Of a stretch of DNA of 64,000 nucleotides, positions 3,303 to 49,900 are shown one piece after another; position 1 is the first letter of the stretch, and every line of letters begins with the position of its first letter. The notes beneath the pieces were generated by a model, which worked only from the letters and a program-made list of their open reading frames with translations, ran no database searches and was not told the origin of the DNA. Origin of the DNA: Argopecten irradians (taxonomy: Eukaryota > Mollusca > Bivalvia > Pectinida > Pectinidae); the NCBI RefSeq assembly GCF_041381155.1, contig NC_091134.1, positions 5,260,255-5,324,254 on the forward strand. The letters run 5' to 3'. Both the position numbers and the translations under genes were made by a program.

Positions 3303-6300
3303 CTGAAACAAAATTATAAATCATAGTTCAATAGGCTATTGATATACAACAAATCAATACCCATAGATTTATCAAGATAAATGTCAGCAATAACATATCT
3401 ATAAACCTACAAACTCGTTTTAATTCCCAGATAATTATATCGGAACTGGACAGGGTCATATGTAATAACTAGGCAGCTGGACTCCTGGGTTATCTCAAAG
3501 TAAAACTGAAGACATTTCGAAAGAAAATGCCTGCACAATCACAGGCCTGCAAAGACTTTCTTAGAAGGCTACAGAGAGAGTGAAGCCCAACTTCAAATCC
3601 ACTTAATCACCTGTTCTGTTGCCTCCAGTTTTATTATGAGATATGCCGGCAAGGGTGGATATAACGTCAGTAATAGTAACCCCTAGAGTATCGGGGTTTG
3701 TTGTATTCAGAGGGTCACTTGTTTGAACCCCCATTTGGCAGTGAATTTTTTTTTGCTCCTTTTTGAATTCTTTCAAGTGATAAGACACATCAAAAATATG
3801 AATGATGAGTTGTCAATGTAGTGAACTAGACTGGAGTATCTAAACCAGCCCCAGTCTAGTACAGCACGTAGTAATACTCACCATACCCGCCAGATCACAA
3901 ATCATAAGTGCTCCAATAGTAGCCTCTTCGTGATTATCTTGTATATCCAGGTTGACAATGTGTACTGGTTCATTCTGGTCCTTTAAGCGGTTCTCCAAAT
4001 CTGAGTAAAGATTATACAACTAATGATGTATGTGATCAAAAAGGTATCTATATCTCTAAATGTAACTCCAAAATCTCTAAATGTAACTCCGCTAACATTA
4101 TGTAATCAAATAGGTATCCATATCTCTAAATGTAACTCAAAAATCTCTAAATGTAACTCCACCAGCCTAAAGTGATTCTAAATGTAACTCCACCAGCCTT
4201 AAATGATCAAATAAGTATCCATATCTCTAAATGTAACTCAAAAATCTCTAAATGTAACTCCACCAGCCTAAAGTGATTCTAAATGTAACTCCACCAGCCT
4301 TAAATGATCAAATAAGTATCCATATCTCTAAATGCAAATTCACCAGCATTATGTAATCAAATTAGTATCAATATTTCTAAATGTAACTCCAAAATCTCTA
4401 AATGTAACTCCACCAGCCTAAAGTGATCAAATAAGTATCCATATCTCTAAATGCAACTTCACCACCACTATGTAATCAAATTAGTATCAATATCTCTAAA
4501 TGTATCAATATCTCTAAATGCACCTCCACCAGCCTATCAGCAACTTCAGTACACATTATGACACATGAACGTGTTATATATATAGAGGGGCAGTGTAGGA
4601 ACTGACTGACAAATTATTTTGGAAAGATTTTGAAAGATTTGTCATGTGTAGAATAAATGTGGTCATTTGTACAGTGGCCTTGCCTTAGAAATCAACCAGT
4701 TAACCTTGAAGGCTGAAACACACTGGCACTTACTGATTTGTAACATATGTCATAAATAGATATCTAAATGACAAGAGAAAAACTTCAAAACATTTTCTTT
4801 AGATTGGAAAATCGGGTTATACACGAATTCTTCTCACTCAATAAATTAATGTTTACCTCTAATAGTTGAGATACAACCTAAGAATAAGTACCAAGTTGAG
4901 GTTACTCTTGACTCTCAGAGGAATAAGAACTTGAGGGTTGCTCTGGACTCTCAGAGGAATAAGTACCGAGTAGAGGATTGCTCTCGACTCTCAGAGGAAT
5001 AAGTACTTGAGGATTGCTCTCGACTCTCAGAGGAATAAGTACTAAGTTGAGGGTTACTCTCGACTCGCAGAGGAATAAGTACCGAGTAGAGGAATGCTCT
5101 CGACTCTCAGAGGAATAAGTACCGAGTTGAGGGTTACTCTCGACTCGCAGAGGAATAAGTACCGAGTAGAGGAATGCTCTCGACTCTCAGAGGAATAAGT
5201 ACCGAGTTGAGGATTGCTCTCGACTCTCAGAGGAATAAGTACCGAGTTGAGGATTGCTCTCGACTCTCAGAGGAATAAGTACAGAGTTGAGGGTTACTCT
5301 CGACTCTCAGAGGAATAAGTACCGAGTTGAGGGTTGCTCTCGACTCTCAGAGGAATAAGTACTGAGTTGAGGATTGCTCTCGACTCTCAGAGGAATAAGT
5401 ACAGAGTTGAGGGTTGCTCTTGACTCTCAGAGGAATAAGTACTGAGTTGAGGGTTGCTCTCGACTGTCAGAGGAATAAGTACTGAGTTGAGGGTTACTCT
5501 CAACTCTCGGAGGAATAAGTACGGAGTTGAGGAGTGCTCTCGACTCTTAGAGGAATAAGTACTGAGTTGAGGATTGCTCTCGACTCTCAGAGGAATAAGT
5601 ACCGAGTTGAGGATTGCTCTCAACTCTCAGAGGAATAGGTACTGAGTAGAGGAATGCTCTCGACTCTCAGAGGAATAAGTACCGAGTTGAGGGTTGCTCT
5701 TGACTCTCAGAGGAATAAGTACTGAGTTGAGGGTTGCTCTTGACTCTCAGAGGAATAAGTACTGAGTTGAGGATTGCTCTCGACTCTCAGAGGAATAAGT
5801 ACTGAGTAGAGGAATGCTCTCGACTCTCAGAGGAATAAGTACTGAGTTGAGGGTTACTCTCGACTCTCAGAGGAATAAGTACCGAGTTGAGGGTTGCTCT
5901 CGACTCTCAGAGGAATAAGTACTGAGTTGAGGATTGCTCTCGACTCTCAGAGGAATAAGTACAGAGTTGAGGGTTACTCTTGACTCTCAAAGGAATAAGT
6001 ACTGAGTTGAGGGTTGCTCTCGACTCTCAGAGGAATAAGTACTGAGTTGAGGGTTACTCTCAACTCTCGGAGGAATAAGTACGGAGTTGAGGAGTGCTCT
6101 CGACTCTCAGAGGAATAAGTACTGAGTTGAGGATTGCTCTCGACTCTCAGAGGAATAAGTTGAGGGTTGCTCTCGACTCTCTGAGGAAGAAGTACTGAGT
6201 TGAGGGTTACTCTCGACTCTCAGAGGACTTACCATCAATCACCTGGTCGTAAACACGCTCCTCACATGTTATAATGACGTTGAATCTCTCGGCAGACGAC

Positions 6301-9300
6301 TGAAAGCGCTCAGGTTTTGGTTTGATCCTGCGATTCCTGTCCAACATGTGCAGGATTCCATTCTGAGTATATCTGTTTGTTTGAGTTAAGGTCAAATGAA
6401 ACATGAACTACTTCGCAGAACAAGAAATACCCTAACCTCCATATGAAATCAGAATAGAAGTGACACAACAAAACTGGCCATGGGTAAATGTCTGCTTCTA
6501 ACATTTCGGAACTACAACTACTGATTTACTACAACCTGAAGAGTACACAAGATGTAGTTGCCTGCTGGCATCCCTTACATAGTGTCTTGTGGCAGTCCTA
6601 ATGAGGACATCTGTTGTAAAGGAGGCATCTCTCATGTTGATGCCTTGTAGCACTTCCAACCCCCGAAAAACTCTTGATGTTGTTGATCCCCTTCCCTAGT
6701 GGAGATATTGTCAAAATTGATGCTTTGTGGCATGCATAATATGTAAGTGATGACAATATCCAAGTTTAATTAAGGCGTGATTGAACATCAATGTCATTGT
6801 GTCACATTTGTAGATTCACAGATCATTGACCTTGACCTTTAACAAATACCACAATGATCACAAAAATTATACCGACATCAAAACCCTTCTACCTACCCAG
6901 TGTGGCAAGTGTTCCTTAATGTGGTAAATTAGCTAAATTCCTGTTGTGGTAAATGCACTATATCCCTTCTGTGCTAAATGATGTGCTGTATTACAAGTGT
7001 TATATTCATTGCTATAGTAAATGTGTTATATGTAATATAATTACGCTGTAGTAAATATACTGTGTTCCTCCATATGAAAAATATGTGTGTATTCCTTCTT
7101 TATTCTTTTCCATGGTAAATGAGCTGCATTCATACTATAGTAAATGTGTGATATTCCTGATGTGAGAAATGTGATCTATTCCTTTATCATTTTGATGTGG
7201 TAAAACTGAATATCCATGTTTTGGTAAATTAGCTGTATTCTCAGTGAATGTGCTATATTTCTGCTGTACTGAACTACTGCTGTTGTAAATGTGTTATATC
7301 ACTGCTGTGGTAAATGTGTTACATTACTGCTGTGGTAAATGTGTTATATCACTGCTGTGGTAAATGTGTTACATTACTGCTGTGGTAAATGTGTTATATC
7401 ACTGCTGTAGTAAATGTGCTCTATTACTGTTGTGGTAAATGTGTTATATCACTGCTGTGGTAAATGTGTTACATTACTGCTGTAGTAATTGTGCTCCATT
7501 ACTGTTGTGGTAAATGTGTTATATCACTGCTGTGGTAAATGTGTTATATCACTGCTGTGGTAAATGTGTTACATTACTGCTGTAGTAATTGTGCTATATT
7601 CCTTGCTGTAGTAAATGTGCTATATTACTGTCGTGGTAAATGTGCTATATTATTGCTGAAGTAAATGTGTTCTATCACTGCTGTGGTAAATGTGCTATAT
7701 TACTGCTATGGTAAATGTGCTATATCACTGCTGTGGTAAATGTGCTATATTATTGCTGAAGTAAATGTGTTCTATCACTGCTGTGGTAAATGTGCTATAT
7801 TACTGCTATGGTAAATGTGCTATATCACTGCTGTGGTAAATGTGCTATATTACTGTTGAAGTAAATGTGTTATATCACTGCTGTGGTAAATGTGCTATAT
7901 TACAGCTGTAGTAAATGTGCTATATCACTGCTGTGGTAAATGTGCTCTATTACTGTTGTGGTAAATGTGTTATATCACTGCTGTGGTAAATGTGTTATAT
8001 CACTGCTGTGGTAAATGTGCTATATTCCTTGCTGTGGTAAATCTGCTATATCCTTGCTGTGGTAAATGTGCTATATTACTGCTGTGGTAAATGTGCTATA
8101 TAACTGCAGTGGTAAATGTGCTACATTACTGCTGTGGTAAATGTGTGATATTCCTTGCTGTGGTAAATGTGCTATTATTCTATTATGACCCTTTCCAAAG
8201 GGAACTGTTCAACTATAATGTTGTATGGCGAAGTATAGTCCCAGAGTCAAAGAAGAGGGGATGATACCTCGCCAGACAACACTATAGGAAAACTGTTCCG
8301 GAGGGAAAGGACGTTAATAGATTTAGTACATCACATGACATTTATTATGACGTCATATATATGGTCGCGTGCTCATTCCCGGGGGAATATACTTTGGTAT
8401 AGTTCCTGTAGTCAGGTATAATGTCCCGTAGTCAAGAAGGGCAGATAACTGTCGCAAAATAGACCATGGATGTTATCCAATCGCATTTCTAGTAATTTTC
8501 ATGTGATTTACTGTAGTGAATGTGCTATATTCCTGCTGTAGTAAAAGTGGTGTATTCCTTGCTGTATTAAATATGGTGTATTCCTTGCTGTAGTAAATAT
8601 GCTATATTCCTGTTGTGGTAAATGTTCTATATTCCTTTCTGTGGTAAATGTGTTATATTATTGCTGTAGTAAATGTGCTATATTCCTGTTGTGGCTGTAG
8701 TAAATGTGCTATATGCCTTGTTGTGGTAAATGTTCTATATTCCTTGTTGTGGTAAATGTGCTATATTGCTTGCTGTGGTAAATGTGCTATATTGCTTGCT
8801 GTGGTAAATGTGCTTTATTCCTTTCTGTGGTAAATGTGCTGTAGTAATGTGCTTTATTCCTGATGTGGTAAATGATATATATTCCTCTTGTAGTGTATGC
8901 AATATGTTCCAATTTTGACAATATCTTTTGTTGTCAAATGTTGTATGTTGTTGTGATATTCACCATATTCCTGTTAAATGTGTTACTTAATTATTCCACT
9001 TAAGTTTGATTTTCAAAAATTAGTTTACAGTTTTTTCGCAAATAAAATGTGATGTTGTTCTGATGTGATTTGCAGACATGTTGTGGTATATAAGATATAT
9101 TCTGATAGTGGTAAATGCATTATAGTCTGGTTGAGGTAAATGGGACATATTCTGGTTGTGGTGAATGTGATGTGTTCTGGTTGTAGTACATGCAACATAT
9201 TCTGGTTGTGGTAAATGTGACATAATTATGGTTGTAATAAATCAAACATATTCTGGTTGTGGTAAATGCAACATAATTATGGTTGTAATAAATCAAGCAA

Positions 9301-12300
9301 ATTCTTGTTGTGGTAAATGAGATATGCTCTGGTTGTAATAAATGTTATATATTCTGGTTGTAGTAAATGTGCTATATTCTGGTTGTAATAAATGTGACAT
9401 TCTGGTTGTGGTAAATGTGCTTTACTCTGGTTGTGGAAAATGTGCTATACTCTGGTTATAATAAATGTGACATTTTCTTGCTGTGTTAAATGTGCTATAT
9501 TCTGGTTTTGGTAAATATGATATACTCTGGTTGAGGTTAATATAACATATTCAGGTTGTGGTAAGGTATCATATTTTGATTGTGATAAAGGTGACATATT
9601 CTGGTTGAGGTAAATGTGATCTGGTTGTGGTAAAAGCGACATAATTATGGCTGTAATAAATTTTTACATATTCTGGTTGAGGTAAATGTGCTATACTCTG
9701 GTTGTGATAAATGATTGTAATTAATTTTTACATATTCTGGTTGTGGTAAATGTGCTTATTTTGGTTGTGATGAATGTGATGTGTTCTGGTTGTATCACAT
9801 GCAACATATTCTGGTTGTGGTAGATGCGACATAATTAAGGTTGAAGTAAATTTGCTACATTCTGGTTGTAATAAATGTGACATATTCCAGTTGTGGTAAA
9901 TGTTCTATACTCTGGTTGTGGTAAATGAGATATGCTCTGGTTGTAATAAATGTTACATATTCTGGTTGTGGTAAATGTGATATGTTCTGGTTGTGGTAAT
10001 TACATTATTATGGTTTTAGTAAATGTGCTATATTTTGGTTGTAATAATTGCGACCAATTCTTGTTGTGGTAAATATGTTTATTCTGGTTTTGGCAAATGC
10101 GACATATTCTGGTTGTGGTGAATGCGATATACTCTTGTTGAGGTAAATGAGATATGCTCTGGTTGTAATAAATGTTCCATATTCTGGTTGTGGTAATTAC
10201 AACATTATTATGGTTTTAGTAAATGTGCTATATTTTGGTTGTAATAATTGCGACCTATTCTTGTTGTGGTAAATATGTTTATTCTGGTTTTGGCAAATGC
10301 GACATATTCTGGTTGTGGTGAATGCGATATACTCTTGTTGAGGTAAATGTGATATACTCTGGTTGTGATGAACGGATATGTTCTGGTTGTGGTAAATGCG
10401 ACATATTCTGGATGAGGTAAATGTGACATATTCTGGTTGTGGTAAATGTAACATATTCTGGTTTTGGCAAATGCGACATATTCTGGTTGTGGTGAATGCG
10501 ATATACTCTTGTTGAGGTAAATGTGATATACTCTGGTTGTGATGATCGGATATGTTCTGGTTGTTGTAAATGCGACATATGCTGGATGAGGTACATGTGC
10601 TATACTGTTGTGATTAATGTGATATATTTTTGTTGTGGTAAATGTGACATATTGTGGTTGAGGTAAATGTGACATATTCTGGTTGTGGTAAATGTAACAT
10701 ATTCTGGTTGTGGTAAATGTGACATATTCTGGTTGTGGTAAATGTGACATATTCTGGTTGTGGTAAATGTGATATATTCTTGTTGAGGTAAAGGTGACAT
10801 ATTCTGGTTGTGGTAAATGTGACATATTCTGGTTGTGGTAAATACAGTATATTCTGGTTGAGGTAAATGTTATATAATCCTGTTGCGATATGATTACATG
10901 CTACAAATATCTGATGAGGAGCTAAATGATTTAGCAGGATTTGATTTTGCCTATCCTAATAACAGCTGAGGCCGCTTAAAACATTTATATGGATTTGTTT
11001 GTAGGTTGTGTGAACATATATGTTTTATGGTAAGTTTTCATAAATCTCAAAAACATATTAACCATATCTATTGCTTTTAACTCCCATTCCAATTTATTTG
11101 CTTTCATTTATCTTTTTTAACCACCAAATAAATGACATAATGTGTATCAAAACCACTTAAATTTAAAGTCTGCTTTAAAAAAAAATCAAAACTTTGGGTC
11201 AATATGCTTTTGAAAAAATATGGTATACATATCAAATTAGAAACCTTGACAAATTGCGACAAATGTATCTGTCAAAGTTCCTGTCAGTATTTTATGAGCA
11301 AATGATCAGTCAAGAAATATGGATGAATTTTAGATTGATCAATGTCACATCCATATTCCTTTTATTATGATCAATTACAAATATTTTCTGTAGCACTTCC
11401 ATCTTCATGGCTCTCTAGACATGGGCAGGAGATCATCTTCAGCATGCAATCATGGCTGCCTTTACCAGGACAAAATCAGGAATCATCCCAGCATGCACAA
11501 CCAACAAGCACTTCAACAAATCCAGTGTATTACAACAAGACTGTTGCTATGATATCTGTCTGAAACTGAGCGCAATAAGCAAAATATTCCTGCAAATACA
11601 GCAGGTTTTCAATAATCTGTTAGCAAAAGTAACAGGTTTTTATAAATTACCATGATATTTAAGATTAAATTTTGATGTACATGTACATATAATTATGCAT
11701 GAATCCTAAATCTATATGAAATGAAAGTTTTTTTCTCTAAAAGAAAGCCACATTCAATTATATGGAAATGACTTTGCATGTTACCAGCAAATATGAATTA
11801 ATTTAAAGTATTGACCAGATAATTTTGTAAGTTACAAAGCGAACCTACTTCTCTATAAAATTCCAAAATCGCAATACGGTACTATCAAGGACTTTCAAAC
11901 ATTGATCACTTCTTAGCACAATTACCAGCTTTTCATTGCTTACATATATACTGGTAATCACCATTTCTGTGTGAAAGCTATAGCCTGGAAATGATCAGGG
12001 CATGTTCAACAACAGACACATAACAAAGAAAAAATGTGTTGTTGTAAAACTTCATTTGCAAGCATGAAGACCAAGATCTGGTATGTATCTCCTATTGCTA
12101 TCATTAGTCTTCAGGGGTATCGATAACAACTGAAAAGCAGCATCCGCTATACAAGTCTTTTTTTTCATTTTTGAACTGTATCCAAACCTAGATAACTTTA
12201 TTAAGATTCAGGTTACAGTAGAATTTATCAGTATACAGATTTGTTTTAATTTATTATTTAACTTCTCAAGTCTGTTTATACTTTGTCAAGTTTAGATTCC

Positions 12301-22000: not shown

Positions 22001-25000
22001 GCTACTATTGGCAGACATCATGTAGTGGAGTTATGGCCCTTTGATGTACTAAAAAAACCCATCATTTTCTGCCATTCCCTGTGCAATAATTGTAACAATT
22101 GTAAACCAATTTTTAGCTCACCTGGCCCAAAGGGCCGGTGAGCTTATGTCATAGCGGTGTCCGTCCGTCCATCCGTCTGTCCGTCAACATTTCGTTTAAA
22201 TCGCTACTAGTCATAGAGTTCTGCATGGATTGTAACCAAATTTGGCCACAAACATCCTTGGAATAAGGGGAATAGAACTTGTATAAATTTTGGCTCTGAC
22301 TCCCCAGGGGGCAGGAGGGGCCAATAGGGGAAAGAGAAGTAAATCCTATAAATCGCTACTTGTCCTAGAGTTCTGCATGGATTGTAACCAAATTTGACCA
22401 CAAACATTCTTGGGGGAAGGGGAACAGAACTTGTATAAATATTGGCACTGACCTCCCTGGGGGCAGGAGGGGTGGGGCCCAATAGGGGAATTAAAGGTAA
22501 ATCCTATTAAATCGCTACTTGTCCTAGAGTTCTGCATAGGGATTGTGACCAAATTTGGCCACAAACATCCTTGGCAATGGGGGAAGAGGGAATAGAACTT
22601 GTATAAATTTTGGCTCTGATCCCATGGGGGCAGGAGAGACAGGGCCAATAGGGGAATTAGAGGTAAATATTCAAATTCCTTCAGAAAAGAATCAATGAAC
22701 CTATATCCAGAACATTACTTGGCATTTCAAACCAGGTGAGCGATGCAGGCCCTTTGGGCCTCTTGTCTTAAAAGTTAGTATTGAAATTTAATGCCTTAAG
22801 AGTTCAGCCAAGTTCAATAGTCACTTTCAGCGGACATTATTTTACACATCTTATTTCCGATTAGATTTAAACATAAACTCAATAATGTTTACCTACAATA
22901 TGTCCTGAAAGCGGGGGATGGAAATTCCACAAATTTGCTTGTTTTTCCGTCTTTGTATTACACATCTTATTTCCGAATAAGTTTTAAACCCAACCTCAAT
23001 AATGTTTACCTACAATATGTCCTGAAAGCGGGGGATGGAAAATCCACAAATTTACTTGTTTTTCCTACTTTGTATTACCAAGTAAATAAAGCACGGATGA
23101 ATCAAACACGGTTGAATTGATTACATTTTGCGGTCCTTTCCTTCTAAAATATACCAAAATTTCCTTTTTTGTGTCGAAAATTCCGGCATCACACTGTCTC
23201 AGGTAACAGTTAAGTCTATGTCTGATTAACCGAAACATGACTAATCAACTGTAATGTTTGATTAAAAAATGTTCCCGATATATATTTATTGCCTATCAAT
23301 ATGTGTATAAAACGTCAACCTGGAAAAAGTCGGTTCAGTCACTTGAGTCAGTACAACTTGGATATCAATGTCTTCGTTAACAGTAAAACATGGTTGAGTC
23401 AAACCATCGGATAAGTCAAATATTTTTCCTGCTCCAGCTGACTTCGACTTATGCGTGTTTTACTGTACTTTGGATTATTACCATTTGGCAACTTTGTTTT
23501 ACAGTGATGTTTGGGGGTTGGTTTTTTTGCGGCATCCTATCAACAATGATTTAAGGACACTTCAGGTTTAGGAGATGGAGAAATGTTAGAGTACCAAAAG
23601 AAGAAAAAACAATGGCCTATATTCCATGCCTTCTTACTGCTCCACTTTAATTTTAAAGACGTCTTAGTTGGTGAATGGATAGTAGGTTGTATATTTGAGT
23701 CAACAGCCGATTCATGGGAGTTCTGTTCATTAAAGGATGTGTTGGGTTCAGAAGGCAGAGAAAAGCTAAAATGCTGGAGAAAAAAACATTGGCCTGCTGT
23801 CCAAATATTAATATATTAAGATACCTTCAATATCCAACTTGGCCACAGTAGTGTTTACCTTAAAACGGACAGTTCATAGCGTCCTACCAAAATCAGAACC
23901 CACATTTACCAGAGATGGGGTCAAGTATCCAAGTATCAGAAACCTGTATAGTTACTGAGGTGGACATCAGATTTTTAAGGAGGATTGATTGAACGATCAC
24001 CAGAATGTGAATCTTTGAGTTATAGTTATATCCTCATAAAAAATAGTGTAGAGTGAAAAAAGGAGCAATTCTCCTTAGAAAGAGTGATAATTTAGATCAA
24101 TATCAGCTAAGACAAATATGTAATATGTTGTTCTAATCACAGGCCCATGACACATCTGTACGAGCTATGCAGTGGAGCCACAACGACCAGTGGATGGTAA
24201 CAGCGGACCACTCAGGCTTTATCAAGTACTGGCAGACCAACATGAATAACGTGAAGATGTACCAGGGCCACAAGGAGCCGGTGCGCGGGATAAGGTGGGC
24301 TTCTGTGCAGGACTGTATTGTTTACTTGACCCTCCTTTGGGTCGCAGCCAGAAATCTAGCTATTCCATGTCTGTGTGCTCGTCTTAATAGTTACTTAAAT
24401 ACTTATTTCAAAATTCACAAGTTAGCATTGCCATATTTAGATAAAAAGTTAACATCATATAGTTATATTTTATTACTGCTTTTAAGATATATTCCCAAAA
24501 GTCAGAAGTTGATACAGATAGATAAGAGTAAAGATTTAAAAGGTCATGGCTTGTTTTTTCAAATTTCAAACACAAATTACTTAAAAATTCTTTCAGGTAT
24601 AATGCCGCCAATAATAAAAACTGAAAAATTATCAAATAAAGTCCTATTTTGTTTACAATTCGGTTTTGGCCAGCTTTTCAGCTTTTATCAAGAACAAATA
24701 TTTTGATTTTTTTACATGGCAAAGTTGTTTAGATATATAATTTTTTTTAGATGCGTGCTTTACTGTTTTACTTAGAAAGAAAGAAATGTATCAATAAGAT
24801 ATATGGTATATTAGGTTTGAGTTAATATTCTATTAGATTTTGTGAACATATAGGCTGGGAGGATTATATGGATTGTCACTGCGGCTTAATTCTGTTAAAT
24901 CATTGGGTTTCTAGCTGACTTAATGTGATATTTCTATGGAACATTTCACTATCACAAAGACTTTCTGATAAACGCCTACTTCGGCATTAGACAATATTCT

Positions 25001-28000
25001 AGATCAAGAAATATTGTTTCCACTATTTCTCCTGTTAAATCTGTCATGGACATTTTGCAGCTTGCTTCTAAATAAAGGCTTTAAGCCCTGCATAGTTAAT
25101 AGTTTGATTAAGAATCTTTTCAATAAAGGCATAAAGCCCCAAATTTTTTCAATGCGTTTTTGAATATTTTTCAATAAAGGCATTAGCCCATATTTTTACT
25201 ATACATAGCTATTTGATCTTAATAAAGGCTTTTAGCCCTAATTCTAAAACTCACTTGTAGTGTTGTTTCTTGCATCCAGTTGGGAAATTTTTCAATAAAG
25301 GCTTTAAGCCCAAACATATCGAGTTTACAATTCAGCAGGAAATTGTAATGCAAGTATTCCTAATAAAGGCATTTGCCCACTCCTTCTGCCATAAAGATTT
25401 GATTGAATTGATTTGCAGAGGCAAGCTTTTAGGAAGTTAAAGATATACTGGGATAGCAGTCACAAGGATTTGTTCCAAGCTTTCAACATTATAAAGGTTC
25501 AATAAAGTCTAGGCCCATTTATGTTCTTCCATAGTTTCACAACTTTATGATTAAAGGAAGCTTCAGAAATAAAGGCATCTAGCCCAAACAGAATCTTTGA
25601 GCATTTCACAACTTTTGATTGAGGCATTTAGGGTATGGATGATTCAACATTTTAATAAAGGCATAAGCCCAACATCTTATACGCACAAACAGATTCTTGG
25701 AGAAGATTACATCTTTTTGAATAAAGGCATCTAGCCCGTACAGGAACTTTGAGAATTTTACAGTTTTGAATAAAGGCATCTAGCCCATATAGGAACTTTG
25801 AGTATTTTACATAATTTGAATAAAGGCATCTAGCCCACTAAGGAACTTTGAGCATTTTACAGTTTTTAATAAAGGCATCTAGCCCATTAAGGAACTTTGA
25901 GCATTTCACACTTTTGAATAAAAGCATCTAGCCCATATAGGAACTTTGAGCATTTTACGCTTTTGAGTAAAGGCATATAAGCCCATTCAGGAACTTTGAG
26001 GATTTTACAGTTTTGAATAAAGGCATCAAGCCCATTTAGGAATTTTGAGGATTTTACAGTTTTGAATAAAGGCATGGAGCCCATTTAGGAACTTTGAGCA
26101 TTTTACAGTTTTGAATGAAGATATCATATCAAGTCCATTAAGGATTGTTAAGCATTTTACAGTTTTGATACACAGCATCAAGCCCATTAAGTATTTTTGA
26201 ACATTTCACAGTTTTTGAATAAAGGCATACAAGCCCGATAAGAAATTTCCAACTTCTGCAAGATTCAGCAACGCAATTATATGTTATTGCAGTGTTATGT
26301 AATACTTCAGCACACTATTTTTTTCAATAAAGGCTCCGACCAATCAGCTTAAAACTTGTCTGCATTAATATACTCTTTTTCTTGCAGAATGCCAGTTCTT
26401 GATATTTTGATGTTGATCACTGATCTATGAGGGTAGAATGTTCAGCATGTTGATAAGTTTGAACAGGCTATGGGAGTTAATCTTTATTTTGCCGTTCTCT
26501 CCTTTCCATATTTAATAAAGGCTTTTAGCCCTAATTCTAAAACTCACTTGTAGTGTTGTTTCTTGCATCCAGTTGGGAAATTTTTCAATAAAGGCTTTAA
26601 GCCCAAACATATCGAGTTTACAATTCAGCAGGAAATTGTAATGCAAGTATTCCTAATAAAGGCATTTGCCCACTCCTTCTGCCATAAAGATTTGATTGAA
26701 TTGATTTGCAGAGGCAAGCTTTTAGGAAGTTAAAGATATACTGGGATAGCAGTCACAAGGATTTGTTCCAAGCTTTCAACATTATAAAGGTTCAATAAAG
26801 TCTAGGCCCATTTATGTTCTTCCATAGTTTCACAACTTTATGATTAAAGGAAGCTTCAGAAATAAAGGCATCTAGCCCAAACAGAATCTTTGAGCATTTC
26901 ACAACTTTTGATTGAGGCATTTAGGGTATGGATGATTCAACATTTTAATAAAGGCATAAGCCCAACATCTTATACGCACAAACAGATTCTTGGAGAAGAT
27001 TACATCTTTTTGAATAAAGGCATCTAGCCCGTACAGGAACTTTGAGAATTTTACAGTTTTGAATAAAGGCATCTAGCCCATATAGGAACTTTGAGTATTT
27101 TACATAATTTGAATAAAGGCATCTAGCCCACTAAGGAACTTTGAGCATTTTACAGTTTTTAATAAAGGCATCTAGCCCATTAAGGAACTTTGAGCATTTC
27201 ACACTTTTGAATAAAAGCATCTAGCCCATATAGGAACTTTGAGCATTTTACGCTTTTGAGTAAAGGCATATAAGCCCATTCAGGAACTTTGAGGATTTTA
27301 CAGTTTTGAATAAAGGCATCAAGCCCATTTAGGAACTTTGAGGATTTTACAGTTTTGAATAAAGGCATGGAGCCCATTTAGGAACTTTGAGCATTTTACA
27401 GTTTTGAATGAAGATATCATATCAAGTCCATTAAGGATTGTTAAGCATTTTACAGTTTTGATACACAGCATCAAGCCCATTAAGTATTTTTGAACATTTC
27501 ACAGTTTTTGAATAAAGGCATACAAGCCCGATAAGAAATTTCCAACTTCTGCAAGATTCAGCAACGCAATTATATGTTATTGCAGTGTTATGTAATACTT
27601 CAGCACACTATTTTTTTCAATAAAGGCTCCGACCAATCAGCTTAAAACTTGTCTGCATTAATATACTCTTTTTCTTGCAGAATGCCAGTTCTTGATATTT
27701 TGATGTTGATCACTGATCTATGAGGGTAGAATGTTCAGCATGTTGATAAGTTTGAACAGGCTATGGGAGTTAATCTCTATTTTGCCGTTCTCTCCTTTCA
27801 GAATGTATTTTAAAGAAATGAATGTTTTTTTGGAGTATTACAAATGCTGAACCCACCTCTCCCTCATAGTAATTACTTCAATGAAATTTGCTTCATTGTC
27901 TTCACAGACACTGAAACATGTTCAAATGCATTTTATCACTAAGTTTATGGCATTAATATTTCCATATGTTGTTTTGTTTATTTTTCTGCACAGTTTTTGT

Positions 28001-31000
28001 CCAACGGATAATAAATTTGCGACATGCTCTGACGACGGAACAGTCCGAATATGGGATTTTATGAAATGTCACGAAGAAAAAATTTTGAGAGGTAGGTCTG
28101 TCCGAAGCCCAGTAGGAGGGGAAAAAACTGCCAAGAAACAACTCGCTTCCTCTTCTTATTGTCTAGATGTATTTATTTAAACCAACTCTTCTAAGGTATT
28201 TAAACTTGTTTGTTAACCATGATTGTACACAAGAAATATTAATGGTCTTTAGCTCAGACAGTGATGCTGTCCTGGGCCACATGCAACAAGAAGTATGGCT
28301 TTGGAGTAGATTAAATTCTCACATCTATATAGGTTGTAATTTTAGATTATGGCAATCAGCAGATTAGATAGAATAAGTTACTATAGCAACCAAGAGAAAG
28401 GTGACAAAATGGACATAACATGGTTAAACACATGATGCCAACCATTATAGAAGAGGGAATGGAAGTACATTTGTACACATCATTAGAATACGCCAGGGAA
28501 ACGCTACTCCTGTAAAGGGTTGACTTAATAACGTTTGCAGTTTTGGTTTATTGTAAAACCAAATTTATTTTTGGACTGACAAAATCAGTATGATAGAAGC
28601 GAAAAAGAGTTTTTAAGTCTTGAATATTGCTATTGACAATTAAAAATTGGATACAGAAAGCATTTTGTGTATGGGATACTGAAACTGTGGTTATAAATCA
28701 TGCAGGATTTGATCTAGAATTGTAAAAATGTTACTCAGGCTTTGGCACAAATATAATTGTATATGAGGATTGTTATCTGCTGTAGGAATAGTTTTGTGAG
28801 GAAAATTTTTCATTTATTTCAAAGTAAGTGAAATTGAAGCCAATAAAGGGGGATGGGCACTTATAGGAATGGGGGCGCTTACCTTGAGCATTTTAAAACT
28901 TAAAGGAAACAATGTTATAATGTGCCTTTATAGCATACATATGAAAAAGTAACTGCAGCTAGGGCATCAACAGATAAAAAAAATGTATTAACATGAATAG
29001 GAATTTTAATAAAAACACACACAAAATGAATAACTACAAAAATCATTTTTTGCTACTTTGAAACTGCTATTTACAGTTTCAAGGGCACTAGTTACATGTA
29101 CTCTGCTAAAACATGTGTCTAGCAAACATTTTGATAAAATCACTCCAAAGGAAAGAAAACGAGAATACATGAATGTTTAGAACTCTTGAGCTACTGAGCT
29201 AGCTAGACTCGCCACGTCATTGCTGTCTCTAGGTCATGGAGCTGACGTCAAGTGTGTGGATTGGCACCCCCAGAAATGTCTCATCGCCTCAGGCAGTAAG
29301 GATAACCAGCAGCCTCTCAAACTGTGGGACCCCAAGTCTGGCTCCAGTCTGGCCACCATGTATGTATTCATTACAATAAGGCTGTCTGTATCACTCGTAA
29401 AAATGATGATTAGCTTAGTTACTATTTAACAGCATTGTTACAGTTTTTACTTGGTTGATGATGCTCCACTGCTGACGAATGGTATTTTTATCACTATCAA
29501 AAACAGGAGCAGACGATTTAGTGTTTTTCTTTAGTTACAAAATTTATTTACTTTACACCATTACCACCATTGGAAAGTTTGAGCTTCTAGCTAATTTAAC
29601 TTCAAGTTGAAATTACAAAAAATAATTAATTGCATCCTGAAAAAAATCTGTTGCACTATATTCTATATGGAATGAAGTACTGATTGCACATACACCATAG
29701 GCAAAATAAATTATTTTACATAAGGCCATGCAGACTGACGTCACACTGGTCAGAACAAAAGATTAGGCCACGCCCACTGGTGGTCTAAATTGGCTTGAGT
29801 TTACTAGAGACATATATTGAGAAAAATACAGATAAGTTGATTACTACAGACACAGAAATGTCAGCGAAAATTGGAAGACATCATTGGAAAGGGAATAATC
29901 CCATCTCCATTTTGATGTATGACATTTAAAGATCGGTTCGAAAATAAAGAAGAAATCATTTATTAAAAATTTTACACTGTACAGTAATACAAAGCCAAAC
30001 CACCAAAGTTAGACCAGCAGTGGGCAGGGCTTAACTGGCCATTGTGACGTCACTATAATTACTGTATGAATGGGCTTATTAATTTTTTTGTGTTAATTAG
30101 ACACAAATACACGATTTAAACACCAATTATTGTTCAAGTGATGGATATAATTTATGGTCTGTCGAAGCTGGAGCATCTTTAAATGTTCAATAATTTAGAC
30201 AGTGTTCCAGATTAAAATACATATATATTACATCTGGCTATATTTGGCTATCTGTAATTTTTCAATCAGTAAAAAATCTGCAAAAATCAATCGGTAGCAG
30301 TGTTTTTAAATCTACAATATAATAGAATTATGCCGGATTTTTTAAAGTGATTTAGCTAATCATTGTTTGAACAGCCAAGCCCTGATGCCAAATTTCCTCA
30401 TACCTTGACATTTTTGCATAAAGTGACAAACATTTTCATAATCTGATTACAATAGAGATTCTTATTCTAATGGAGGATAAAAAACCCTACACAATTACAT
30501 CCTGATTGTGGTCACGTTGTTATGACTTCTATACTTACTCGCTTTGTTTCTGCTGAAGACAACATTTCTCCAAAGTGTATACATATATGCTGTGCTCTTA
30601 GGCCAAATTGACTATACATACTAACGAGAATGATTCTCATAGCTCTTGTAAACTGTTTTTTTCCTTGTCAAGAAATTGGGAAGTAGCATTTTTGAAAGGT
30701 CATCAGAAACATGACCCCATATAGGATGTCTCCCATATACTTCACAGGGATACCCTGTGGTTGCTAGGGAAAAGATAACTCTATCTTACACAGGGAGGTG
30801 TAAGACAACTCACACGCGCTAGAAAATTACGATACAGCATCAATACATGCGGCGTAACTGTGCAGTGCATTATAGATGACATCATCAATTTTGACGTATA
30901 ACAACATTCCTGCATAATGTCACAACGAAAAAGCTGGAAACAAACAGGAATTTCATCTTTTTGCTACTAAGTATGGGAGAAAAAGAATCCTACATGGGTC

Positions 31001-34000
31001 TGTCAAGTGGACAGGGATATCTCAACCCTCTTGAAAGATTTTGGCCATCAACCCTCGGTAAGCCTTGGGATGACAAGCCAAAATCTTTTCAATCGGGTTG
31101 AGAAATCCCTGTCTACTTGACAGACCCATGGAAGATTCTATTAATCCACAGAGTGGGGACCTAAAATAGGAAACATTGCCAAATTTAGGCTTAAAAGTCC
31201 TACTACATGTACTTCTTAACCCTTGAGTGGATTACAACCAGATTTGGTGTGAATACAACAGTATTGTATATAAACACAGCAGGTCTGACCCCAGGGGATG
31301 AGGGGTTAGGTTTCCAAAATGAGAACATTGCTTTCATTTTCTACATCTCTTAATGACTCTGAGTGGATGTCAACCAAATATGGTGTGAAAGATTTACAGA
31401 GGATGATTGTATTTTATGTGAATGGGGCTGGTCCAACCTCCTTCCAGGTGCAGAGGGGTGGGGCTCTAAAAGGGAACTTTGCTATGTTTTGTTTTAAATT
31501 ACAATTTGTTTCACGCTTGCATGGATTACAGTGGGTCCAAAGGGGCAATTTTGGCTATTTCTATATGAAGATTTACTCTGAAACTTAGCACTGGATAACA
31601 CTCATATTGCATTGACACTGTAGCATCCTTATGGAGTACCATGGTGAGGATTCTAAATTGTACAAATAATTGGGCTTACCCCTGAGAGTTTGGGCCAAAA
31701 GGGGTTGATTTCTCTATTTCCAATTTTAATTTTACAAGCCCCATTTAACCTATTAGGAAACAATAGTTATGCAGGTTTCATGGAGGATAAGAAATCCCAA
31801 AAATAAAATTTTTTAATTAAATCACTGTGGAATGTTTAAAACATATGTACAGACTAGAACCAAATGTGTTTCAAGCCTGAAATTCAATCACTGTGAAAAA
31901 ATGATTTGGCAAAAAAAAATGTGCAATTTTGTGGTCACAAAAATTAGTTGAACCAATAATTCATATGGTAGAGTGTGTGTCCAGCATCATTTTGTCTACA
32001 CATTGAGGTTAGTAAAGGATTCCTGCAGTGTCTAGGACATGTAATATGTCATATTTTTCCAGAAGACATAAGCATTCATGCAACAACATGCAGGGGAGAC
32101 AATCCTTACAAGGCCTCGGCTGTTTTTAAGACAAATTAAACAACCAAAAAACATGGCAGAGCCTAGCACAGTGACAATAAAGGAGGGACATATTTTAGCC
32201 CGTCTGAAATTAATTTTTGATCCCTTTGACATTTGAATCATGAAATTACATATTGTACCATGATCTTAAGCTCTTTGTCTGACTAAAAACATAATTTTAG
32301 GCCGTTTTCATATTCCCTTGAATGACTTGCATCTCTTTTTTTGTTTCCATGGCATACCATAATTTTTGCAAATAAGCTAAATCATATTTGTCCACTACCT
32401 CCTGATTGTGATGTTCTGATGACATCAGAGTAGTGTTATAAAATGGATGACATGGCGGAACATATGGTGTTACAGACATGCTCACAAAGGGACTGTAATG
32501 AATCTGAAGTGGAATCAGAATGGTAACTGGCTGCTGACTGCCTCCAGGGATCACCTCATGAAACTGTTTGACATCCGTAATATGAAGGAGGAGTTCCAGA
32601 CCTTCAAAGGACACAAAAAGGAAGCCACAGGTACTGTTAGGAATAAACTGTTATAGAGGATCATACATCATGAGTGGCTAGATAATATGAAATTTACATG
32701 AGTGTAAGATTCTATTTTATCACATAACTTGCTAGTATTTATGAAATTATAGACAAAACTTTTCATTTTATTTCTATATAAGATTGGCGAAATCAGGTTC
32801 CGATATTTATGACATGGCCGAATGTGTCAATTATTTGACAAATCACCTTTATCATATGGTATACCGTAAACACAGATGTTTTGTTGTGTCATATGTTAGC
32901 GGAAATTTCATGCAAACAAAAAACAAAACAAAAACATGAAAACTCCTAAGTGGTAAAAATGTCCAACATTTTGACTACATATAGCCAATTGGCAAAAAAA
33001 CCCATCCAGCTGCATTGAACTTTTAGTGCTGACAGTGGGGGGGGCATGTGTTTTTTTTCCTTCCTTTGTGGCTGAGTAATTATGGTGTTCAGCTATGAAA
33101 TAAGTTTGAATCACAGAGGGCAGTTGCCAGGCACTGACTGTTTCTTCAAGTACATTGACTTTACTTCCCCTCCTAAACCTTGCACAAATTACCCTGGCTG
33201 TTAATTTTATAGGATGTTAAACTAAAACAAAGGGAACAACTTTCTTTGACAACTCACAATTTAACCTTTAGCAAAACTCTGCATATTTTCAGATGAACAT
33301 AGCTGTGAATTGTTATGACCTTACAAACAATTGTAGAATTCCTAAATTTCATTAGATTAAATGGTTACATTTCTTTCTTGACTCTCCGATAGGTTTAAGA
33401 CTATTAACAAAGCTGATACATGTTATGACTTTACAGCTGTGGCTTGGCATCCGATCCATGAAGGGTTGTTTGTGAGTGGTGGATCTGATGGGGCCGTCAT
33501 GTTCTGGATGGTCGGGTAAGTCATGTCATATCACACGACATTCTCAGGTATCAAAAATGTAAAAATGTTTCATCATATTCAATGAGAAATTCCCTGAAGA
33601 TAGCATTAACGAACAGTAGTTCATGACTAAATTCAATCTTTATCATCAAAAACTGATGATAAAAAGTACTTTATGACTATCATATGGTGTGTCAATGTAG
33701 ATGAATCTGGTAAATCAAGACATCAATCGAGAAAGCCCTATTCAATTTGAAGCATTTTAGTGACCTGGAATACACTTTATACTAGTATACTAGGTACAAC
33801 TAACCTTGATACCCCAAATATCTTTTTAACAGTATTTATTGGCTTGGTTTGTGTTGTAGAACTGACAGAGAGGTTGGAGGAATGGAGGAAGCCCACGAGG
33901 GTATGGTATGGAGCCTCGCCTGGCACCCTCTCGGTCACATCCTTGTGTCTGGCTCAAACGATCACACCACGTAAGTTAGCCAAGCACCCTCTCGTTCACA

Positions 34001-37000
34001 TCCTTGTGTCTGGCTCAAACGATCACACCACGTAAGTTAGCCAAGCACCCTCTCGGTCACATCCTTGTGTCTGGCTCAAACGATCACACCACGTAAGTTA
34101 GCCAAGCACCCTCTCGTTCACATCCTTGTGTCTGGCTCAAACAATCACACCACGTAAGTTAGCCAAGCACCCTCTCGGTCACATTCTTGTGTCTGGCTCA
34201 AACGATCACACCACGTAAGTTAGCCAAGCACCCTCTCGGTCACATCCTTGTGTCTGGCTCAAACGATCACACCAAGTAAGTTAGCCAAGCACCCTCTCGG
34301 TCACATCCTTGTGTCTGGCTCAAACGATCACACCACATAAGTTAGCCAAGCACCCTCTCGTTCACATCCTTGTGTCTGGCTCAAACGATCACACCACGTA
34401 AGTTAGCCAAGCACCCTCTCAGTCACATCCTTGTGCCTGGCTCAAACGATCACACCACATAAGTTAGCCAAGCACCCTCTCGGTCACATCCTTGTGTCTG
34501 GCTCAAACGATCACACAAAGTAAGTTAGCCAAGCACCCTCTCGATCACATTCTTGTGTCTGGCTCAAACGATCACACCATGTAAGTTAGCCAAGCACCCT
34601 CTCGGTCACATCCTTGTGTCTGGCTCAAACGATCACACCACGTAAGTTAGCCAAGCACCCTCTCGTTCACATCCTTGTGTCTGGCTCAAACGATCACACA
34701 AAGTAAGTTAGCCAAGCACCCTCTCGGTCACATCCTTGTGTCTGGCTCAAAAGAACACACCACGTAAGTACTTCCTAAAATGTAACTTGAGAAGATGCGA
34801 AGCCTGTATTGAAAACTACCAGTGTATTCATTTAAGATTTGTTGAAATATAGGATTTCTTGTGTTTCTGAATGCTTTTGTTTAAATTGTGAAACAGGAAG
34901 TTTTGGACACGAAATCGTCCTGGCGACCGAATGAGGGACAAATATAACCTGAACACCTTACCAGGAGGGTCTGAGCATGAAATGCCTGAGTTTGGTAAGT
35001 GGGGGGAAAATGCCAATAAAAAAAATATATTTCTAAGAAATAAACATTATTGGTGATAACTTCTTGCAAGCTATCATTAGAGCAGAGATTGTACGGTAAA
35101 CATGAAGAGGCAAGTTTCTTTAATTTTAAGCCGACTACCATAGTTAAGAGTGCTTATGTCTGGTACGAATAAAACTTAAGTTTTAATAATCATTATTATC
35201 TTGAAGTACTGTGAGTGGATTTTTTGTCTCTTGTGTTAAACTCGATAAACATTTACTTACAATTTTAAAGTTATCCAGACATTTTTGTGAGAAAAATCAC
35301 ACATTTAGGCACAGGGACAATTTGAATTGGACTGAAATGAGTACAAGTCTAAGGGATATCTGTTAAGTTGTTATTTAAGTGCCTGCAAAGTTTACAATCG
35401 AGTTTGATTAATTATATAATGTTGGTGTTATACAGAGCCTGACAATACAGGACAAAGTAACATTCCAGGCATGGGTATCACTCCAGCTGATAAAATGATG
35501 AATGAACAGATCAACAAAAATCAAGGTAAGTCCAGACACACCCTTGATCATAGTAATGGGCGAGTCCTAATTTGGTATAAATACATACTTGGCAAAAGAT
35601 TGTATTGAATTTTAGGTAAAAAGAACTTAAATTGCCTATAATCTATTTATATTTTAAAGCGTAAAAGTTGACTCGGCTCTAAATAAATGTAATGTATGTT
35701 TGAATTTGTGTTGACATTTTTTCGGTCCAATTTGGCATTGTATCAGTCAATAAAATGACTGTATTATGAATGTATCTGTGTTTATAGAGACTGAAGGAGA
35801 AGATCTGCCATCCATTCCTGGTCTTGACTGGTCGGCAGATGAACAGTTCTTTAGAGAACAACAGCTCCTTCGAGAAATACCGAAGAAAAAGATTCCCTAC
35901 GCTCGCCCAATTCCCTGGGAATTTGAGCAGGCCTGGATGGTGAAACATACAGGGCTTTTAGTGCCTGACGGAGAAGGAGAGGAAGGGGCAGGAGGCGGAG
36001 GAAGTAGGGAAAAAAGGAGGGAAAGACGCAGAAAACAGCAAATGGAAAGAGGGGCTGATAATCAGCAAGGCTCAGGGGATAGTCAACCCAATAACAATCC
36101 TCCATCCTTAATGCAGCAAGGTTAGTGATAAATCTGTGTTACGTTTAGGTTTCTGTTTTAGGGGTGGGAATATAAAGGAATCATTCTGGTAATGGTGTAG
36201 GCTTTGTTAAATGTATGAGTAAGTGTTGAAAATGTTCAGTAACAGATTAAGCTAGGAAATGATTCAAATATGATGGAATCACAGGGACCTGGCACGAAAA
36301 TTTTTAACCAATAGTATACATATATATATTATAGTATCAAGGGTATGAACTCGGCGGTCAAGAAAAACGGACCTATTTTTTAAAAACCGTGATTATTTTA
36401 ATAAATGGTTTCTATACAACATTGACAGATATCTTACCTTAAAGAGAAATAATTTATCTTTCCATTGAGTGCTTGATGAACAAAATTGGCCAAGTATTGA
36501 CGAAGTTATGGCTTGATGAATCGGGAAATTTACGAAAAATATGCTAGGTAGACATTTCCCTGTCCGGTCGAAATGTCGTCTCGGCTCTAATGGGTACCTC
36601 AAAAACCAAGCCAAAATCACAAAATTTACGCTTGTGTTGGTAAACAGTACCCAGAACTGTGTTCATCCACAATCTCCTTTGTTGGTGTCATCACCCGTAC
36701 TTTATAGAAACATTATTTAAACATCGTGTAGCTCGCTTACTTTACCTTCACAGCCATGTTCATTTTTCTCTCGGAACGCTTCTCGACTTTACATAAAGTG
36801 ACTACATTATGCAAATTATGTTATGTTGTGCTTGCCTGTAAACTCGAGAAGCGTTCCGAAAAACAAATGAACATGGCGGTCACGGTTAAAGTAAGTGAGC
36901 TACACGATGTTTAAATAATGTTTCTATAAAGTACGGGTGATGACACCAACAAAGGAGATTGTGGATGAACACAGTTCTGGGTACTGTTTACCACCACAAG

Positions 37001-46904: not shown

Positions 46905-49900
46905 CTGAGGTAAATATAATTTTATCCCGATGAATTCAGCCTACATTATAACATATCATTGCTGACACTGAACACGCCAACTTAATTATGCTTTGTCATA
47001 TTACACTACAGATACCAGCTCACTTTCAAAAGAAAAATTGTCCTTATATGTGTAACTCTAAAATATATTTATCCCGTGTCGGTTTAAAATATCTGCAATT
47101 AAATATGCAATGGGTGTTTATATGAAAACCTGGAAAGTAGGACGTTTAAAATGTTTTTACTGTTTTTTGCGACTGTTGTTATTATTGATTAACTTACAAT
47201 TGCTTTAGTAACGTTATTAGCATATCCAGCCCATTCTATTTTCAGATAATGGAACATTGTAAAGGATCTGTCTCCATCTGTCATTAAAACAATCTGGAAA
47301 GTGTTTCTCTGAAATTATAGATATATACAAATCATGTTTAAATGACCACCGCCGCATTCATCAATAGTGGGAGACGTACCAGATTACAGCTTAATTTTGA
47401 AGTAAAAATGTTACCAACAACAAATATAGTGTAGTCTTTGAAACAATGCAATATTAGCAAAAGTTATCTCATAACAGAGATACATCAACAAAGTTATATT
47501 AACAACATTATATAAATAAGGTTAGTTATCTTAACAAAGATATCTTCAACCAAATTGTATCCATTATAACATTATAACATTTACCATAACCCCATTTTAC
47601 ATTGCATCCATTATAACATTTACCATAACCCCATTTTACATTGCATCCATTACAACATTATAACATTTACCATAACCCCTTTTTACATTGCATCCATTAC
47701 AACATTATAACATTTACCATAACCCCATTTTACATTGCATCCATTATAACATTTACCATAACCCCATTTTACATTGCATCCATTATAACATTTACCATGA
47801 CCCCATTTTACATTGCATCCATTACAACATTATAACATTTACCATAACCCCATTTTACATTGCATCCATTATAACATTTACCATAACCCCTTTTTACATT
47901 GCATCCATTATAACATTATAACATTTACCATAACCCCATTTTACATTGCATCCATTTATAACATTATAACATTTACCATAACCCCATTTTACATTGCATC
48001 CATTATAACATTATAACATTTACCATAACCCCATTTTACATTGCATCCATTATAACATTATAACATTTACCATAACCCCATTTTACATTGCATCCATTAT
48101 AACATTATAACATTTACCATAACCCCATTTTACATTGCATCCATTATAACATTATAACATTTACCATAACCCCATTTTACATTGCATCCATTATAACATT
48201 ATAACATTTACCATAACCCCATTTTACATTGCATCCATTATAACATTATAACATTTACCATAACCCCATTTTACATTGCATCCATTATAACATTTACCAT
48301 AACCCCATTTTACATTGCATCCATTATAACATTTACCATAACCCCATTTTACATTGCATCCATTATAACATTTACCAAAACCCCATTTTACATTGCATCC
48401 ATTATAACATTTACCATAACCCCATTTTACATTGCATCCATTATAACATTTACCAAAACCCCATTTTACATTGCATCCATTATAACATTATAACATTTAC
48501 CATAACCCCATTTTACATTGCATCCATTATAACATTTACCATAACCCCATTTTACATTGCATCCATTATAACATTATAACATTTACCATAACCTCATTTT
48601 ACATTGCATCAATTATAACATTTACCATAACCTCATTTTACATTGCATCCATTATAACATTTACCATAACCTCATTTTACATTGCATCCATTATAACATT
48701 TACCATAACCTCATTTTACATTGCATCCATTATAACATTTACCATGACCCCATTTTACATTGCATCCATTATAACATTATAACATTTACCATAACCCCAT
48801 TTTACATTGCATCCATTATAACATTATAACATTTACCATAACTCCATTTTACATTGCATCCATTATAACATTATAACATTTACCATAACCCCATTTTACA
48901 TTGCATCCATTATAACATTTACCATAACCCCATTTTACATTGCATCCATTATAACATTTACAATAAACCCATTTTACATTGCATCCATTATAACATTATA
49001 ACATTTACCATAACCCCATTTTACATTGCATCCATTATAACATTTACCATAACCCCATAGCAACTAAAAAGATATTGTGCCATAAATGGAACACGGCTGT
49101 TATATTATTTGTAGTTTGTAAATGACAGAAATTAAAAATTTTAAAACAAAACAAGCCAATTCACTGCCTTCATTTCGCTCGAGACTTATCATTCCAGAAT
49201 AGATAGGAGAGAACCACAAAAGAACATCTGAACATATCAAACTCAGATGCACAAACACGTGGTAGGAATCCCCCTTATGGACACACTTGGCATCAAACAT
49301 CAATCGATGGACGTCAATCCATGTTACTATGAACACCTTTGTCGGCTGAAATGTAGTTTGGTTGTCATAGTAGTTAGCAATGTCAGTTTGGGCACGGGTA
49401 AGGATGTCCGAGTCGTTTGTAAGCCTGTACCAGACCTCTCCTGTCGAACGGGTGTCGACATCCATCCAAAACACGGCGATCAATGGCAGAGGTATTGGTA
49501 GGTTTTGCGGAATGTATACAGCGTATGCAGTAAAGAAAGACAGGTGTCCATTATTGTTCACCTGTAACCGAACATAGATGGGTAAGATTACAGGAAAAGT
49601 TTTTGTCATTATATGTAAAAGACTTTGTTATAATTGAAGGGAACGAATTTCGATATCATTACGAAAGAATAACATAAAACTGAAAATCTATTACATCTTA
49701 TTATAACAATTTATGTATATTGAAATATACAGACTACATTAAAAGTACAAACGACATTGATTGATACGCGAATGGGTCTGACTGCCAGCATAGCTAACAA
49801 AGATTTAAGTCACATACCAGGCTATACACTTGTATCACACATAATACGTGAAACAGATCATCTGGTATCTGTCACTTCTCAATGTATTTGATAAGCCAAA

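Follow-up and report, generated by a model that had tools for sequence, protein, structure and literature searches.

Intronic polyadenylation has been described in several genes for 3′-processing factors. In the closest case, human WDR33, the V2 isoform arises by early polyadenylation through sites in intron 6, exon 7, and intron 7 and carries a tail of 118 residues encoded by intron 6, while V3 relies on poly(A) sites in intron 7 and carries a tail of 16 residues; the V2/V3 sites are multiple and weak, and the choice of site is described as stochastic (PMC11445923). The parts of that report available to us describe modulation of the human WDR33 isoforms by CFIm25 and contain no report that WDR33 senses its own level (PMC11445923). 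For PCF11, a second study describes conserved tandem AATAAA signals in intron 1, with PCF11 limiting its own transcription, and a short isoform whose open reading frame has a C-terminal extension (PMC6458999). Intronic sites with feedback are also described for CstF-77 intron 3 and for fly su(f) (PMC3708835). The PCF11, CstF-77, and su(f) precedents make a sensor mechanism reasonable in kind.

Here we analyzed a 64,000-nucleotide stretch of the Argopecten irradians genome (the window), in which one intron of the scallop WDR33 gene is rich in sense-strand AATAAA hexamers. The original prediction had offered either an autoregulatory sensor or a minisatellite that happens to contain the hexamer. 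Our analysis points to an old intronic tandem-repeat array with the hexamers riding along as the most likely reading, to which we give a probability of roughly 55%.

Identity of the gene and its intron

We built the WDR33 gene model by hand, with ten coding exons between 18836 and 33970. The intron of interest and its flanking exons are as follows.

24143 to 24294, plus strand: WDR33 coding exon 5, with the donor AAG/GTGGGC in phase 2
24295 to 27993, plus strand: intron after WDR33 coding exon 5; placed after human residue 208, it corresponds by residue position to intron 6 of human WDR33
27994 to 28091, plus strand: WDR33 coding exon 6, ending after the residue that matches human 241, where human intron 7 would fall

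Joined together, exons 5 and 6 align along all of their 83 residues with human WDR33 chains (E 4.3e-51, 6f9n_B), and the alignment covers residues 159–241 of the human chains 8e3i_B and 8r8r_B, whose residue numbering we took as native. As predicted, then, the gene is WDR33, both intron-flanking exons matching over all 83 residues, and in the hand-built model the hexamer-bearing intron lies directly after coding exon 5. The scallop intron falls after human residue 208 and the following one after residue 241. We take the human isoform totals to be 326 residues for V2 and 257 for V3; with these assumed totals, 326 − 118 = 208 and 257 − 16 = 241, so both introns match human introns 6 and 7. The parallel with human intron 6 is an addition to what had been predicted and raises the odds that early polyadenylation may take place here, although intron positions are old in many animal genes.

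The exon 5 donor is not weak. It scored 4.50 on a donor-site matrix and came third among nine donors ranked, the exon 7 donor being left out of the ranking. The G+C content is 0.52 in the first 60 intron bases and mostly 0.22–0.40 in the remaining intron. At the other end of the gene, a 61-bp unit present in 13.9 tandem copies (33923–34769) reiterates the last part of WDR33 coding exon 10 and the adjoining 5′ splice site, which places 12 GTAAGT donors at multiples of 61 nt in the intron after exon 10. As 61 is not a multiple of three, alternative use of these donors would shift the frame. Elsewhere in the window, we found an open frame with a reverse transcriptase domain on the plus strand (59833–60798; PF00078, E 1.6e-19) and one with a nidogen-like NIDO domain on the minus strand (49100–49627; PF06119, E 2.9e-24), the latter perhaps an exon of a neighboring gene.

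Hexamer count, block duplication, and minisatellite

Our recount reproduced the 33 coding-strand AATAAA hexamers that had been predicted between 25071 and 27640 and the single hexamer on the other strand (26483–26488). From the sense frequency over the rest of window positions 1–50000, about 3.2 sense hexamers would be expected in this interval; the eight other WDR33 introns counted hold 12 sense and 18 antisense hexamers together. The raw count of 33 overstates the case, and two features of the intron bear on it.

26512 to 27799, plus strand: tandem duplicate of 25219 to 26506, with two mismatches in 1,288 bases; holds 15 of the 33 hexamers
25715 to 26236, plus strand: 49-bp minisatellite, 10.5 copies by TRF

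The two blocks are identical at 1,286 of 1,288 positions (mismatches at 26043/27336 and 26484/27777). Since 15 hexamers sit in the second copy, 18 are independent of the duplication, comprising 7 in the 49-bp minisatellite and 11 in other units. Likewise, the 33:1 strand bias amounts to little more than a single choice, rather than 33, because head-to-tail copies share their orientation.

Two mismatches in 1,288 bases are also what favors an assembly artefact, in which one 1.29-kb block was assembled twice, a possibility that overlaps all three other readings considered here. We regard it as improbable: the joint between the blocks has its own bases, genuine recent tandem duplications would give the same picture, and the 18 first-block hexamers would stand regardless.

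TRF also reported the second copy of the 49-bp array, at 27008–27529. The units run head to tail with 83–84% matches and, at 49 bp, fall within the 10–100 bp unit length of minisatellites. Ten units start between 25720 and 26168, and seven of them carry an exact hexamer. Mean identity in this array is 0.821 for the core (defined below) and 0.824 for the spacer; core and spacer are thus equally diverged, so the hexamer has no special protection in this array. For a random stretch of 49 bp outside the arrays, the chance of a sense AATAAA is 0.055; for ten tandem arrays chosen by us in the window and taken at their own unit lengths, the chance that one or more would contain it is about 0.46. With a chance of this size, it is no surprise in itself that a single array should carry dozens of hexamers.

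Tandem arrays are abundant in the window (45 overlapping TRF rows). A 36-bp unit occurs in about 140 copies with 94% matches at 51066–56138, where the long open frames are translations of the repeat. Long 25–26-bp arrays with TGTGGTAAATG-like units occupy 6880–10900, with AATAAA appearing as a variant in some copies.

The 11 hexamer-bearing units outside the minisatellite have spacers of 31–122 nt. Compared with the 49-bp spacer consensus, 9 of these 11 spacers scored no better than shuffles, the spacer of unit 25568 was clearly related, and unit 25362 was borderline (p = 0.050). The likeness of these two spacers suggests that the old units do seem to be descended from the same array. The minisatellite that had been proposed accounts directly for 7 of the 18 non-redundant hexamers, and another 15 of the 33 come from the block duplication. 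The T-rich stretch GCATTTTACAGTTTT, given as an example of what follows each hexamer, belongs to the 49-bp units and their copy; the spacers of the other 11 units are mostly unrelated to the 49-bp spacer.

A bipartite core in the older units

The units outside the 49-bp array are arranged around a common core.

25071 to 25719, plus strand: core AATAAAGGC-N3-6-GCCC in nine copies, the spacers unrelated in most of them
26218 to 26342, plus strand: two further cores (26218 and 26326) with unrelated spacers; 26326 is without the GCCC box

The claim that every hexamer is followed by a GGC box and then GCCC was nearly right, a GGC-like box and GCCC following 31 of 33 (the exceptions are 26326 and 27619). 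In the 11 copies that do not belong to the 49-bp array, 98 of 99 bases of AATAAAGGC are kept and GCCC occurs in 10 of 11 after 3–6 free bases; beyond the two boxes the information is about zero, apart from a weakly T-rich lead-in. The kept element is therefore larger than the hexamer, with GGC and GCCC kept as well as AATAAA. For the first nine units, with units 26218 and 26326 outside both group means, core identity was 0.866 (shuffled 0.489) and spacer identity 0.450 (shuffled 0.436); the likeness of the cores is inflated, as they were picked by motif, and the core-like remnants at 25489, 25550, and 25618 were left within the spacers. When the same picking procedure was applied to the diverged flank of the 25-bp array (6880–7300), it gave cores of 0.69–0.75 versus 0.891 here, so motif picking alone does not explain the likeness of the cores. 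The 650 nt at 25071–25720 contain eight exact copies of AATAAAGGC, whereas the commonest 9-mer in 792 overlapping non-array pieces of 650 nt was a TATATATAT with seven copies.

Another array that keeps a box, TCTCTAAATGTAACTC, lies at 4053–4444 (box identity 0.930; spacers 0.364 versus 0.313 when shuffled), its spacers being of few recurring kinds and lengths. A kept box amid unlike spacers is thus not unique to the WDR33 intron. If selection does guard the core, it would be at work among the older copies, with the young ones exempt.

We also folded 12 core variants. For ten of them, a GGC/GCC hairpin of 3–4 bp was predicted (−3.5 to −3.9 kcal/mol); of the remaining two, one gave no hairpin and one gave two pairs only. 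The arms hardly vary, so the pairing is a prediction without covariation. Such a hairpin after AAUAAA, or alternatively a DNA-binding site, could make the intron a homotypic cluster for a protein or RNA that needs AATAAAGGC plus GCCC, with the hexamer incidental. That both boxes are kept while the 3–6 bases between them are free and nothing is kept outside them would suit this explanation, as would the predicted pairing of GGC with GCC in 10 of 12 variants. We nevertheless judge it quite unlikely, given that the arms do not covary, that 2 of 12 variants are without the hairpin and 3-bp stems are marginal, that the copies share a single orientation not needed by clusters of DNA sites, that no Rfam family was matched at its gathering score, and that the core is not guarded in the 49-bp array.

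Searches for related elements

Several identities were considered for the repeated element. The histone 3′ stem-loop has a 6-bp stem and a 4-nt loop. The stems predicted here are of 3–4 bp, and this family was not among the two Rfam matches obtained at E up to 1, both of them weak minus-strand matches to snoZ40 (21.5 bits versus a gathering score of 50); we rejected it. A DNA transposon with subterminal repeats was rejected as well: the intron has seven inverted pairs that are 71–86% complementary, none of them near-perfect around the array.

We then scanned collections of viral, bacterial, archaeal, and plasmid DNA. Viral contigs returned zero matches to the exact core, zero to the two-core pattern, and zero WDR33 relatives. 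In the genome contigs, the two-core pattern was found once, in a rumen bacterial contig (L001), where by hand estimate about one match would arise by chance, and zero WDR33 relatives were confirmed among 51 pattern matches. These collections are without animal genomes, so the misses say nothing on animals. Among the literature matches listed, none joined the AATAAA polyadenylation signal with minisatellites, none mentioned WDR33 in connection with such repeats, and no report of this array was seen, which is short of proof that there is none.

Poly(A)-site context and open read-through

To describe the surroundings of the hexamers, we compared the 18 non-redundant hexamers with 49 other sense AATAAA hexamers and with 2000 random gene positions. 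At +10 to +45, the T fraction was 0.38 versus 0.35 at the other hexamers and 0.33 at random positions, and the best 12-base G/T run scored 8.72 versus 8.39 and 8.44. GT/TG steps in the same interval were not enriched (2.78 versus 4.55 and 4.29), nor was UGUA within 60 nt upstream (0.17 versus 0.31 and 0.39). The predicted downstream-element-like context was not recovered: GT/TG and UGUA are below both comparison sets, and there is no strong T-rich enrichment. The hexamer surroundings thus lend no support to strong or efficient poly(A) sites.

We also asked how far translation would continue from exon 5 into the intron.

24295 to 24706, plus strand: frame continuing open from exon 5 for 137 intron codons, with the stop codon at 24704–24706

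From this stop it is 365 nt to the first core. In the nine other introns the frame stays open for 1–55 codons, and the 137-codon frame is the longest among 2,319 starts in introns defined by GT and phase. In 20,000 dinucleotide shuffles, 136 codons were reached in about 1 of 10,000 (P about 1e-4), a value to be read loosely since it was calculated after the open frame had been seen, among ten introns. Codon usage in the read-through gives no sign of coding (−0.366 per codon in frame versus −0.322 and −0.326 out of frame, on a codon table scored on its own exons), and Pfam gave no match at E up to 1. A V2-like membrane tail was rejected, as the best 19-residue hydropathy of 1.67 has P values of 0.496 and 0.525 against two random models.

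These results bear on the possibility that the hexamers form an early-polyadenylation cluster, the counterpart of human WDR33 intron 6, in which the unspliced intron is cut at redundant AAUAAA sites. The product would have 215 normal codons followed by the 137 intron codons and a 3′ UTR ending in the array. Full-length WDR33 would be lowered and a V2-like protein might be made; a response to the level of WDR33 would be a further, unproven step. Besides the long read-through, this possibility draws on the origin of human V2 and V3 from intron 6 and 7 sites, with intron positions that match under the assumed isoform totals. It draws further on the placement of sense hexamers in an intron of a 3′-processing-factor gene and on the orientation of the cores, since matches at 12 or more of 14 positions number 35 on the plus strand of the intron, zero on its minus strand, and zero elsewhere in the window. 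PCF11, CstF-77, and su(f) also have intronic sites (PMC6458999, PMC3708835). Weighing on the other side are hexamer surroundings that are enriched neither in GU-rich or UGUA elements nor strongly in T, the equal preservation of GGC and GCCC even though poly(A) signals do not need them, a read-through without codon-usage signal, membrane excess, or Pfam match, and an exon 5 donor that is not weak. On balance, we consider early polyadenylation in this intron the main rival reading, though an unlikely one. Both readings first offered have partial support. For the autoregulatory sensor, the literature on human WDR33 intron 6 and PCF11 intron 1 is in its favor, while the sequence carries no signs of efficient sites, the donor is not weak, and the unit that is kept is AATAAAGGC...GCCC rather than the hexamer alone.

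Discussion

The reading we prefer is that of an old tandem-repeat array. A unit of about 50 bp with the core AATAAAGGC-N3-6-GCCC would have been multiplied head to tail, and the older copies would have lost the likeness of their spacers over time. The 49-bp minisatellite, with its uniform units, would stem from a later burst, after which a recent tandem duplication of 1.29 kb would have nearly doubled the hexamer count, the hexamers being carried along as part of the repeat unit. The copies, the burst, the duplication, and the common core are all seen in the intron. We infer that no dedicated function keeps the hexamers and that they are rarely used as poly(A) sites, perhaps as the intron is removed first. 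The repeat-array reading leaves the survival of the core amid lost spacers unaccounted for, and it makes coincidences of both the match to human intron 6 and the 137-codon read-through.

A bolder proposal would join several of these elements: a dense, redundant cluster of AAUAAA plus hairpin would end WDR33 transcripts in the human-equivalent intron, yielding a short form of 352 residues; early polyadenylation at this intron would then be older than the divergence of the two lineages, and the number of units would tune full-length WDR33. We hold this to be very unlikely. Should the sites be in use, a gene whose product reads AAUAAA would contain its own target as a large array, in an intron that already serves as a control point in human, and repeat expansion would be a direct means of tuning a core RNA-processing factor. 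If they are unused, one could ask here, in a natural setting, why a transcribed intron can hold dozens of consensus hexamers that are all ignored. The bipartite core is of interest on its own, as a short element that outlives its surroundings.

Among the known systems, human WDR33 V2 shares with the scallop locus the gene, the intron by residue position, the presence of several hexamers, and a read-through of similar kind (137 codons here versus 118 in human). Human V2 differs in having three functional sites defined by 3′RACE rather than a repeat array and in having a tail with a membrane segment, whereas the hydropathy of the scallop read-through is no stronger than chance. PCF11 PAS1 resembles the locus in its tandem AATAAA within an intron of a 3′-processing-factor gene and in its open C-terminal extension. 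The PCF11 signals are conserved in vertebrates and shown to be autoregulatory, while the scallop copies, as putative signals, are far more numerous. CstF-77 and Drosophila su(f) likewise have an intronic poly(A) site in a 3′-processing-factor gene; CstF-77 combines a weak donor with conserved UGUA and GU-rich elements, in contrast to the scallop intron, where the donor is not weak and these elements are not enriched. Lastly, the locus is like intronic minisatellites in its 49-bp head-to-tail units, its block duplication, and its many neighboring arrays, and it differs from them in that the older scallop copies keep a bipartite core amid mutually unlike spacers.
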